From the NCBI GenBank assembly GCA_019312665.1, contig JAFDCZ010000007.1, forward strand, positions 1 through 53,584: DNA of 53,584 nucleotides, written 5' to 3'. The stretch is from Deltaproteobacteria bacterium (GTDB lineage: Bacteria > Myxococcota_A > UBA9160 > UBA6930). Both the position numbers and the translations under genes were made by a program. Below the pieces are notes generated by a model. The model saw nothing but the letters and a program-made list of their open reading frames with translations. It was not told the DNA's origin and ran no database searches. This document shows positions 1 to 43,406 of the stretch, piece by piece. Positions within the stretch are counted from its first letter, which is position 1. The number at the start of each line of letters is the position of its first letter.

Positions 1-658
1 ACCTCGGTCATGCCGTTCCCGCGGTAGTAGTCGAGCTTCTTCGGATCGGGGAAGACGCCGAACGGAACGAAGTGGAGCTTCTCGAAGTCGCGACCTCGTG
101 CGTCCATCTCACGGCGTAGATCCTCGAGCGCCTCGCGGATTCCTGCACCACCGATGGGCATCCAACCGTCGCCGTACTCTGCAATATGCTTGAAGAGCGT
201 CGGACCCGGCGAACCGCCTAACAAGACTCTCGGGCGAGGCTGCTGCACAGGTTTGGGCCACATCCAGCTCGGCTCGAAACGCACGAACTCCCCGGCGAAG
301 CTCGCTTCCTCCTTCGACCACAACTCCTGCATCGCGAGCATCACCTCACGCACGTGGGCGCGCCTGCGGCTCACATCGATCCCGTGGTTCTCCATCTCCT
401 CGTGGTTCCAGCCGTAGCCGATACCGAGCACGAAGCGCCCCCCACTGAGCCAATCCGCCGTGGCGATCGCCTTGGCCAGGGCGATCGGATCATGCTGGGC
501 CACCAGACCGATTCCCGTTCCGAGCAGAATGCGCTCGGTGGCGGATGCGTGTGCTCGGGGAGGTAGAGTGAATGGAAGCCCCGTGCCTCGGCCTCTCGCG
601 CCAGTTCCACGGGATCCATGGCAACATCCGTCGCATGAAAGGCGAGTCCGATCTCCAT
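1..658 (-). pseudogene. LLM-class (F420-dependent type) oxidoreductase, frameshifted and partial
   Basis: The luciferase-like monooxygenase fold is recognisable in two frames. From the ATG at 658 the product runs MEIGLAFHATDVAMDP and reaches LYLPEHTH, the usual N-terminus of the TIGR03619-type LLM oxidoreductases. At about 540-550 the homologous sequence jumps to another frame, which reads TERILLGTGIGLVAQHDP, then LSGGRFVLGIGYGWNHEEM and WMWPKPVQQPRPRVLLGG, and stays open to the window edge. Relatives have about 35-40 residues between EHTH and TERI (a DPFVALAAAA-type stretch), so roughly 100 nt are missing and the frame is changed. The C-terminus lies beyond base 1. The gene diverges from the indolepyruvate oxidoreductase. 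It is either a true pseudogene or an assembly/sequencing loss; the family assignment is firm. Confidence 0.8.
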
Positions 659-18916: not shown

Positions 18917-18927
<11 letters not shown>

Positions 18928-19001
18928 CGGGGACGGGGTTTACAATTGACTTGTTGCTCCGCAACAAGTCAATTGTAAACCCCGTCCCCGTTATTGAGTT
19001 A
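18917..19001. repeat. Perfect 41-bp inverted repeat with 3-nt loop between convergent genes
   Basis: Left arm 18917-18957 and right arm 18961-19001 are exact reverse complements around TCC. The arm has a core ACGGGGACGGGG, an A/T-rich section TTTACAATTGAC and the loop-proximal TTGTTGC. The element contains the stop codons of both flanking genes (TAA at 18925-18927 and TAA on the minus strand at 18999-19001). It can act as a two-way terminator, but the perfect arms and the composition, unlike the flanks, fit a REP/RAYT-mobilised palindrome better than an ordinary terminator. Confidence 0.9.
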
Positions 19002-40681: not shown

Positions 40682-42166
40682 ATGCCCGAACCCTCTCTCA
40701 TCTTGCTGCGCCTATCCGGCGAACTCTCGACGAAGGCCAAGGCCACGCGCCGCCAATTCGTCACGCGCCTGCTGCGCAATCTGCGCGACGCCCTCGATGA
40801 GACGGGCCATGGCTACCGCGTCGAGCGTCGCTACGAAAGAATCCTCGTCGAACTCGAAGACGCCACCGATCTGCCGCGTCTGGGGCGGCTCTTCGGCCTG
40901 CAATCCCTGGCTCCTGCGGAACGCCAAGAGGTGCGCACCCTCGACGAGGTAGTCGATCACGGTGAGCGCATCTTCGGTGCTGCGGTGGAAGGACGGCGCT
41001 TTGCCGTGCGTGCACGCACTGTCGGCACGGACGCGGTGCCAGGCGTACGAGGCCACGATGTCGAGATCGCGCTAGGCGCACGCCTCTTGCCGCGCGCCGC
41101 AAGAGTCGACCTGAGCACTCCGGAGGTGACCGCTCGGATCGAACTCTACGGAAACGCCGCCTATTTCTTCCGGGAGAACCTGCCCTGCCCCGGCGGTCTC
41201 CCCCTCGGCACGGGAGATCGCGCGATCTCGTTGGTCTCCGGTGGATTCGATTCCGCCGTCGCTTCCTGGCAGATGCTTCGCCGTGGCGTGAACCTCGACT
41301 ACGTCTTCTGCAACCTCGGCGGCTTCAGCCACCAGCTCGGCACCTTGCGGGTGATGCAGGTGCTGGCCCAGGGCTGGTCCTTCGGCACCCGACCCAGGCT
41401 TCACGCCATCGATTTCAGCGCCGTCACACGAGAGCTGCAGCGCGTGGCCGAGCCGCGCTACTGGCAGGTGATCCTGAAACGATTGATGCTGCGCGCCGCG
41501 GATGCGGTCGCCGAGCAGGCCGGTGCCCACGCCATCATCACCGGGGAAGCCGTCGGACAAGTCTCGTCCCAGACCCTCGTCAACCTGCGTACCATCAGCG
41601 AGGCCACGGACTATCCGATCCTGCGTCCGCTGGTCGGCAGCAACAAGGACGAGATCATCCGGCGGGCAGAGGAGATCGGAACGGCGGAACTTTCGGCGGT
41701 GGTCGGCGAGTACTGCGCGCTCGTCCCAAGACGGCCAGCCACGGCGGCGAAGCTCGACGTCATCCTGGAACAAGAGAAAGGGATGGACATCGCCGTGCTC
41801 GAACGTGCGATCGAGGATCGCGAAATCCTCGCGTTGCGCAGCCTCGACCCAGAAGCCTGCGGAATGCCGGAAATCGAGACCGACCGCGTTCCAGAGGGCG
41901 CCCGCGTGGTGGACTTGCGCACCCGTCACGAGTACGAGAGCTGGCACTTTCCCGGGGCCCTTCGGCTCGGCTTCTCCAGCGCCGTCGAAGCCTACCCCTC
42001 CTTTGCGAAGGACCAGCCCTACGTCCTGTACTGCGAGTACGGTTTGAAGAGCGCGCACCTCGCCGAGATGATGCGCTCCGCCGGCCACCGCGCCCTGCAC
42101 TTCCGCGGCGGCACCCGCGCGCTGCGGCGATGGGCCGAAGAGAAGGGAATCAAGGAAGAGTCGTGA
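40682..42166 (+). CDS. thiI: tRNA 4-thiouridine / thiazole sulfurtransferase ThiI with rhodanese domain
   Basis: ThiI adenylates U8 of tRNA and delivers sulfur for s4U and thiamine thiazole. The 494-aa protein has an N-terminal ferredoxin-like/THUMP region (LLRLSGELSTKAKATRRQF), the PP-loop SGGFDS at residues 186-191, a Cys near 345 in GEYCALVPRRP, and a rhodanese domain with the persulfide Cys near 450 in VLYCEYGLKSAHLAEMM. Both Cys residues match the two used by E. coli ThiI. The ATG at 40682 is preferred from the family N-terminus. The following thioesterase overlaps by 4 nt. Confidence 0.92.
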   Translation: MPEPSLILLRLSGELSTKAKATRRQFVTRLLRNLRDALDETGHGYRVERRYERILVELEDATDLPRLGRLFGLQSLAPAERQEVRTLDEVVDHGERIFGAAVEGRRFAVRARTVGTDAVPGVRGHDVEIALGARLLPRAARVDLSTPEVTARIELYGNAAYFFRENLPCPGGLPLGTGDRAISLVSGGFDSAVASWQMLRRGVNLDYVFCNLGGFSHQLGTLRVMQVLAQGWSFGTRPRLHAIDFSAVTRELQRVAEPRYWQVILKRLMLRAADAVAEQAGAHAIITGEAVGQVSSQTLVNLRTISEATDYPILRPLVGSNKDEIIRRAEEIGTAELSAVVGEYCALVPRRPATAAKLDVILEQEKGMDIAVLERAIEDREILALRSLDPEACGMPEIETDRVPEGARVVDLRTRHEYESWHFPGALRLGFSSAVEAYPSFAKDQPYVLYCEYGLKSAHLAEMMRSAGHRALHFRGGTRALRRWAEEKGIKEES

Positions 42167-42558
42167 ACGATTTCACTCGACGTCTGGGAATGAAGACCGT
42201 GCACGCCGCGGACGGCGAGTGCCACATCGAGATGATCGTCGACGAGTTCCATATGAGTACAGCGGAACGTGTTCACGGCGGCGTCTTCTTCACGATGCTC
42301 GATACGGCGATGGGGCGTGCCGTGATCTCCAATCTTCCCGAAGGACGGGGCTGCGCGACGATCGAAGCGAAGATCAACTACTTCCGTCCCGTACAAAACG
42401 GAAGCCTTCGCGCCGAGGCCCACTGCGTCTACGTCTCCCGCCGAACGGCTTACGCGGAAGCAAGCCTGATCGACGGAGAAGATCGCATCGTCGCAAGATC
42501 CACCGGAACCTTCATGCTCACCGACACCCTGAAGCAATCCGAACGAGAACGGGTCTAG
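42163..42558 (+). CDS. PaaI-type hotdog thioesterase
   Basis: The 131-aa hotdog protein has HGGVFFTMLDTAMGRAV, the PaaI/YbgC-like active-site helix with a conserved Asp, followed by TIEAKINYFRPVQNGSLRAEA. Such enzymes hydrolyse acyl-CoA thioesters, often aryl-CoA. The GTG at 42163 overlaps the thiI stop (GTGA) and has AAGGAAG upstream, so it is translationally coupled. The substrate is unknown. It is the last gene before the structured non-coding element. Confidence 0.88.
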   Translation: MNDFTRRLGMKTVHAADGECHIEMIVDEFHMSTAERVHGGVFFTMLDTAMGRAVISNLPEGRGCATIEAKINYFRPVQNGSLRAEAHCVYVSRRTAYAEASLIDGEDRIVARSTGTFMLTDTLKQSERERV

Positions 42559-42614
42559 CTGCCGCCCTCAGGCCGTTGTTCGGAGCTTTTGGGTTCGCTT
42601 CGCTTCTCGTGATG

Positions 42615-42766
42615 GATCGCGGGCCGGGGGGCGGCCAGCGCTCCATGGCTCACCAGACCGTCGAACGCGCGTGCACCGAGTTTGCCGAGCGCGCAGGGGG
42701 AGGGCGCGTACTCTCCGGCCTGGCTCCGCTTTTACTTCCGCGCTGACCGCCCCCCGGCCCGCGATC
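42615..42766. repeat. Arm B hairpin of the structured element
   Basis: Arms 42615-42641 and 42740-42766 pair over 27 positions with one mismatch, including a perfect 20-bp section GATCGCGGGCCGGGGGGCGG at the outer end. The 98-nt interior holds shorter GC-rich repeats (ACGCGCG, GAGCGCGC). Confidence 0.85.
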
Positions 42767-42791
42767 GGCCGTGCTGGCAACCGGAACCGCT

Positions 42792-42965
42792 TCGCCGGGG
42801 CTGGGCACAGGCCGGGCGGAAATAAAGCGCAGGCATAGGTCCAGCCCAGCGTGCGCGTAGGTTGCCCGCGGCGAAGCCGCAAAGGGCAACACCTGTTCAG
42901 GCCTCTACGCGGCCACCCGACCCTCGGCCGAGCCATTCCGCCCGGCCTGTGCCCAGCCCCGGCGA
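42792..42965. repeat. Arm C hairpin of the structured element
   Basis: Arms 42792-42821 and 42936-42965 are perfect 30-bp inverted repeats (core CCGGGGCTGGGCACAGGCC). Inside, CGCGTAG (42854-42860) pairs with CTACGCG (42905-42911) and encloses a hairpin 42861-42890: GTTGCCC, GCGGC, loop GAA, GCCGC, AAA, GGGCAAC. Confidence 0.85.
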
Positions 42966-43034
42966 CTCCCGTTCACACCAGAGAAGCGAAGCGAACCCAA
43001 AAAAGTCCGATGGAAAGAGGGCGGAGACCCCCCG

Positions 43035-43406
43035 CTATGTCTGGGTGCTCGCTTCTGCGCTGACTTCGCGGCCTGCTATGCGCAAGCGGACGCGGCAGGC
43101 GATTTCCAGGGAGGGGACCTGTTCGCCGCGGTGCCAGAGGCGGCGGGTCTGGAACTCCGCGTCGAGTTCGGCGCCTTCGAGGGCCCCGCTGGTGCTGGTG
43201 GCCTTCTCGATTTCGCGGCGCAGCTCCTGGCCGATGAAGAGTGAAGGCAGGGGATCGCCGTCGCACCACGCCTCGCCGGTTCGAAGGTCGAGGCGCAGGG
43301 AGCCTTCGCCGATCGCGAGCAGCGCTTCGTAGTCGTCGCGCAGCTTCCAGCCGAGGAAGATCCGACACAGGTCTTGCGCCAGGGTCTGGCTCGCTTCGGG
43401 GGTCAC
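43035..43406 (-). CDS. Hypothetical protein
   Basis: I do not recognise this 123-aa protein. It starts MTPEASQTLAQDLCRIF and contains a GEGSLRLDLRTGEAWCDGD segment that looks like a beta-sheet, then IGQELRREIEKATST (helix). No signal peptide or membrane segment is evident. It lies 20 nt after the sigma/DUF3106-like gene on the same strand and next to the structured element. Coding is supported by codon use similar to neighbours and by a normal start. Confidence 0.6.
   Translation of the reverse strand: MTPEASQTLAQDLCRIFLGWKLRDDYEALLAIGEGSLRLDLRTGEAWCDGDPLPSLFIGQELRREIEKATSTSGALEGAELDAEFQTRRLWHRGEQVPSLEIACRVRLRIAGREVSAEASTQT

Follow-up and report, generated by a model that had tools for sequence, protein, structure and literature searches.

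A gene-free interval in the window, by which we mean the whole stretch of 53,584 nucleotides that was analysed, holds 463 bp of nested inverted repeats and raises the question of what kind of element is built in this way. The first-pass annotation had described a perfect 22-bp outer stem, an additional 8-bp pair and two large inner hairpins, and offered a mobile palindrome (MITE or REP cluster), a structured RNA, and a recombination or replication site as possible identities. We recovered each of these structural parts exactly where it had been placed, between two convergent genes that end at 42558 (+ strand) and 43035 (- strand). What had been described is a single member of a dispersed, non-coding repeat family that numbers at least 45 copies in the genome. 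This repeat most likely propagates in the manner of a miniature transposon, settling behind genes.

In the window copy, the perfect 22-bp outer stem pairs 42587-42608 with 42981-43002, and the extra 8-bp pair joins CCGCCCTC at about 42562-42569 to GAGGGCGG at about 43017-43024. Both strands are predicted to form the structure, as had been supposed. For the 491-nt interval, folding gave -306 (+ strand) and -327 kcal/mol (- strand), 12-14 standard deviations better than dinucleotide-preserving shuffles (z = -12.4 and -13.8, respectively), and none of 100 shuffles folded as well. These shuffles on both strands, together with the genome-wide copies, ruled out a single-copy or chance structure. No promoter was found at the window copy, and the element contains no Rho-independent terminator, i.e., a stem followed by a T tract. 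When the interval was used as the query in a genome search, the homologous core of the family proved to be 42596-42993. Thus, the 463-bp extent first proposed is a real structure, but the family ends inside it, and the pairing of TTTTGGGTT with AACCCAAAA beyond the core is private to the window copy. The orthologous copy in the related genome G003 lacks this extension and has an additional hairpin in the middle. The parts of the window copy and its neighbours are as follows.

42130-42558, + strand: 4HBT family thioesterase gene, reading towards the element
42587-42595, no strand assigned: outward extension of the outer stem, TTTTGGGTT, pairing with 42994-43002
42596-42608, + strand: left terminal inverted repeat, CGCTTCGCTTCTC (family form GGCCGCTTCGCTYCTC), an end that recurs at 45 or more places in the genome
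42615-42641, + strand: 5′ arm of hairpin A (hairpin 1), from the stem search, alignment and arm table
42642-42739, + strand: interior (tip) of hairpin A, type a, CCATGGCTCACCAGACC...GGCCTGGCTCCGCTTTTACTTCC
42740-42766, + strand: 3′ arm of hairpin A, with a compensatory CCGGCCC opposite GGGCCGG (family GGGGCGG/CCGCCCC)
42767-42791, + strand: spacer separating both hairpins, from the alignment
42792-42821, + strand: 5′ arm of hairpin B (hairpin 2)
42822-42935, + strand: tip module of hairpin B, with conserved edges ATAAAGCGCAGGCAT and GGCCGAGCCA, from the motif search
42936-42965, + strand: 3′ arm of hairpin B
42981-42993, + strand: right terminal inverted repeat, GAGAAGCGAAGCG
42994-43002, no strand assigned: outward extension of the outer stem, AACCCAAAA, pairing with 42587-42595
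43035-43406, - strand: ORF of no assigned family, reading towards the element

The thioesterase gene is apparently missing at the syntenic place in genomes G002 and G004, where its neighbours are nearly adjacent.

The search with the interval found about 40 matching places, 79-93% identical and with sharp common ends; for most full-length copies the identity is 89-93%. A pattern for the left end occurs at 45 places with 0-2 mismatches, against a single place for the reversed control pattern. Full-length copies measure about 396-428 bp, one-hairpin or internally deleted forms about 220-270 bp (measured, 223-268 bp) and three-hairpin forms about 549-570 bp; the remaining copies are truncated at their right side or run into a contig end. 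All five genomes of the genus contain the element, and none of the 56 genomes from outside it does. Likewise, the tip motif pair ATGGCTCGGCC-(75..105)-GCCTGCGCTT occurs in four of 91 genomes of the class, all four within the genus. The terminal repeat was counted 87 times in G002, 24 times in G000 and 16 times in G003, with counts elsewhere at background level. Most of the listed G002 matches lie at most about 200 bases from a contig end (C15, C23, C25, C40, C45 and others). Given this position, the hairpins break the assemblies, so that copy numbers are underestimated. No record in the plasmid and phage collections matches the element; six viral contigs sharing a 17-mer with it are chance matches within unrelated sequence. 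Rfam gave no match above the gathering score, only sub-threshold chance hits to MIR1437.

In the usual architecture of the family, the terminal inverted repeats GGCCGCTTCGCTYCTC and its complement enclose hairpin A, a spacer and hairpin B. The stem of hairpin A in the window copy is 27 nt long with one mismatch, and that of hairpin B is 30 nt long and perfect. In the window species, the arms of hairpin A have the form GGATCGCGGGGCGGGGGGCGG/...CCGCGATC and those of hairpin B the form TCGCCGGGGCTGGGCRCAGGCCGGGCGGAA/.... The edges of the tips are conserved (GGAAATAAAGCGCAGGC and GGCCGAGCCATTCC), and the tips also contain a nested stem around GCGGCTTCGCCGC; the hairpin B tip of the window copy contains the nested stems CGCGTAG/CTACGCG and GTTGCCC-GCGG/CCGC-GGGCAAC. 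In many copies the tip of hairpin A is the reverse complement of that of hairpin B, and the two hairpins are therefore inverted paralogues. The window copy carries a diverged tip in hairpin A, where other copies have a type-b tip or a flipped one. The same arms can enclose tips in either orientation (L156, L284), and one form in G003 (L087/L240) is a one-hairpin recombinant that combines the 5′ arm end of hairpin A with the 3′ arm of hairpin B. A third hairpin module, GGGTGGAG...GGCTCCACC, lies between the usual two hairpins, or replaces them, at L188, L213 and L238.

Conserved sequence is found in the terminal repeats and in the tips of the hairpins, while some copies have wholly different long arms in their stems. 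In G002, G001 and G004, the family ends and tips stand on other arms, such as GCGCGGCGGGGCGGGGTTC in G002 and CGCGGGGGTCGGGCGCCGCCTGGCC in G001. Across eight representative hairpins, a hairpin's own arms are complementary at 20-22 of 22 positions. Arms taken from different copies match at 11-18 of 22 positions unless they are related; unrelated pairs match at 11-16, no more than best-offset matching would give in GC-rich sequence. We also found the compensatory changes between copies that the annotation had proposed to look for. Among 39 distinct hairpin B sequences from the G000 and G003 copies, 12 of 48 pairs have a double change, against 1.8 in shuffled data, where none of 500 shuffles reached 12, and 1-4 in controls in which the pairing was slid. 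Arm A has 13 compensated cells against about three expected, the GGGCCGG/CCGGCCC of the window copy among them. With at least 45 left ends and abundant covariation, the locus is neither single-copy nor devoid of covariation, two of the properties that had been named as arguing against a functional or mobile element.

Complementarity is thus maintained across copies. However, template switching between arms yields double changes and can invert the interior of a hairpin (PMC8794818, PMC8604942). Since template switching and selection on an RNA give the same signal, covariation does not separate a DNA structure, an RNA structure and a mutational outcome. A structured RNA is accordingly a candidate identity with a putative function: the covariation is strong and also obtainable from DNA-level mechanisms.

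Copies are concentrated where two genes end. Convergent-gene junctions hold 21 of the 38 copies with both neighbours called, compared to 21 of 166 background junctions on the same contigs (Fisher p=9e-8; genes were called with a dicodon model, so that the calls are approximate). The left end is mostly 13-97 bp 3′ of a stop codon. REP families are similarly placed (PMC3733652). Presence also varies between relatives. The syntenic junctions of L013 and L015 in G004, and of L002 in G003, for example, lack the element, and at the L016 junction in G003 the terminal repeat alone is left. Several insertions are common to G000 and G003, whose DNA identity is about 88%, which indicates that many copies are old. 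None of the syntenic junctions offered a base-exact empty site, the surrounding intergenic DNA not being alignable between species. In 20 copies, direct repeats of 2-12 bp were no more frequent than with mispaired flanks, i.e., there was no sign of target-site duplication. Complementary flanks at the window copy had suggested that the element inserted into a terminator loop that was already there. We rejected this as a general rule: over 20 copies, flank complementarity was barely above that of mispaired flanks (12 of 200 permutations reached as low a value), and the G003 orthologue of the window copy lacks the extension. Among 94 end matches in G000, we found no transposase and no long element with paired ends, in an assembly of 392 contigs that is often broken at the element.

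Dispersed copies, restriction to one genus, differences in presence and recombination between copies all support the mobile palindrome among the identities first offered, while a recombination or replication site received no support. We consider it fairly probable that the structure is one unit of a mobile repeat that is genus-specific, non-coding and non-autonomous, is built of hairpins, is moved in trans, and persists behind genes. The unit would consist of two terminal inverted repeats around one to three large hairpins, normally two that are mutually inverted. An enzyme supplied in trans would recognise the folded ends and tips, probably on single-stranded DNA during replication, and copy the unit into new sites without target duplication. 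The arms would only have to remain complementary, and both single-strand recognition and template switching between arms during replication could sustain their pairing; hairpin-dependent mobility, template-switch repair or both may keep them so. Copies would persist chiefly where two genes end, because insertion there spares promoters and coding sequence, and transcripts of both neighbours may read into the hairpins. A more specific version, in which conserved tips and ends define the element, the arms are freely replaceable if complementary, and an enzyme other than a RAYT mobilises it by shape, is a tentative proposal that we think doubtful.

Selection could instead act on an RNA, with the hairpins forming transcribed 3′ ends of the flanking genes that serve as bidirectional, non-canonical terminators or transcript stabilisers, and any mobility being secondary. 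The strong enrichment at convergent genes, the short distance of most copies behind a stop codon and the compensatory changes in the stems are in keeping with this idea. So is the excess of G-T over A-C mismatches in hairpin B on the + strand, with 21 against 5 distinct types (15:2 in an earlier count), the lean that a + strand RNA would produce. However, unpaired positions lean likewise (61:33), leaving p=0.06 for hairpin B after correction, and we dropped the attempt to read an RNA strand from these mismatches. Arm A has no such lean (3 G-T against 7 A-C). In addition, the window copy has neither a U-tract terminator nor a promoter, many syntenic gene pairs in relatives lack the element, and near-identity across the species suggests amplification, not site-by-site selection. 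On balance, a selected RNA element is unlikely. The changes in arm A, mostly direct double changes without G-T intermediates, would fit a passive product of replication, in which template switching homogenises and lengthens long inverted repeats and recombination spreads them, without any function or enzyme of their own. Like the flipped interiors and the private palindromic extension of the window copy, such double changes are products of template switching (PMC8794818, PMC8604942). This scenario leaves unexplained both the conserved ends and tips and the dispersal of 45 or more units with shared termini to unrelated intergenic sites, and we hold it to be very improbable.

Another candidate is a true REPIN/BIME family moved by one of the genome's own Y1 (IS200-like/RAYT) transposases. 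REPINs and BIMEs, which are RAYT-associated REP doublets, are also multi-copy, extragenic, inverted doublets with conserved ends. They have a variable yet complementary spacer with compensatory changes, lie behind genes and between convergent genes as REPs do, and show no target duplication (PMC3116915, PMC3733652). Moreover, every genome of the genus has 3-12 Y1_Tnp matches. By contrast, none of the 13 Y1_Tnp loci examined in the genus carries the element, or an end exceeding chance, near the gene; one 14-bp near-match 2.2 kb from such a locus lies within unrelated sequence. By definition, a REP is a palindrome of 20-40 bp that has GTAG or CGTC as a tag at its foot (PMC3733652), whereas our family ends in GGCCGCTTCGCTYCTC without either tag. 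Its units are also far larger (220-570 bp), are confined to one genus, and contain two or three giant hairpins that stand apart from each other and have conserved tips. Since we found no tag and, at the 13 loci examined, no RAYT association, we did not file the family as a REPIN, and its movement by a resident Y1 transposase is quite unlikely.

The non-autonomous mobile repeat that we favour also resembles bacterial MITEs, such as the enterobacterial RU elements and Correia-type elements, in being short, non-coding, intergenic and present in dozens of copies, with terminal inverted repeats and a length under about 600 bp. It differs in its interior hairpins with independent complementary arms. 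No parental insertion sequence with matching ends was found among the 94 end matches in the fragmented G000 assembly. The lack of target-site duplication (20 copies) is the reason why we did not file it as a classical MITE. BOX elements are modular mosaics of ends and variable internal modules. Those of Streptococcus pneumoniae resemble our family, by architecture alone, in their strong secondary structure, their dispersal within one species group and this modularity with conserved secondary structure. By contrast, the modules here are nested hairpins with flips and arm swaps, in a high-GC genome and preferentially between convergent genes. The BOX elements of S. pneumoniae are thought to be parasitic (PMC3049150). 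By analogy, the best-supported comparison is that the family would work like a REPIN or BOX element, as a palindromic mosaic repeat. The impression that the structure resembles no nameable element therefore holds for the family and not for the class: it belongs with the interspersed palindromic repeats (REPIN, BIME, BOX). Our best reading is a new family, absent from the collections searched; its general type is known, its hairpins are unusually large and its arms are interchangeable.

Although palindromic repeats of the interspersed type are common, few known families reach such a size or have arms that are wholly replaced between copies and species with complementarity intact. The family, at 45 or more copies per genome in several species, offers a test bed for distinguishing selection on structure from homogenisation by template switching. 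The cause of compensatory change is an open issue wherever functional RNAs are inferred from covariation. In more practical terms, the element accounts for positions at which metagenome assemblies of the genus break.

Two minor observations concern other sequences. On contig C215 of G000 (L226:2640-3393), an ORF starts directly behind a truncated copy of the element, and 20 bp of element sequence are duplicated where the two meet. We take this ORF, from a motif recognised by eye, to resemble an IS110-type transposase. REP hairpins have been reported as insertion targets, and by analogy the hairpins of our element may be as well. Finally, the window contains a separate 41-bp perfect hairpin of another class at 18917-19001 (TAACTCAATAACGGGGACGGGGTTTACAATTGACTTGTTGC). 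In G001, a similar GGGGACGTTC...GCAAC hairpin occurs at one of the syntenic junctions (L078), and in G003 a matching hairpin is found close to a Y1 transposase gene (L183), which suggests that the 41-bp hairpin is a RAYT-type repeat.
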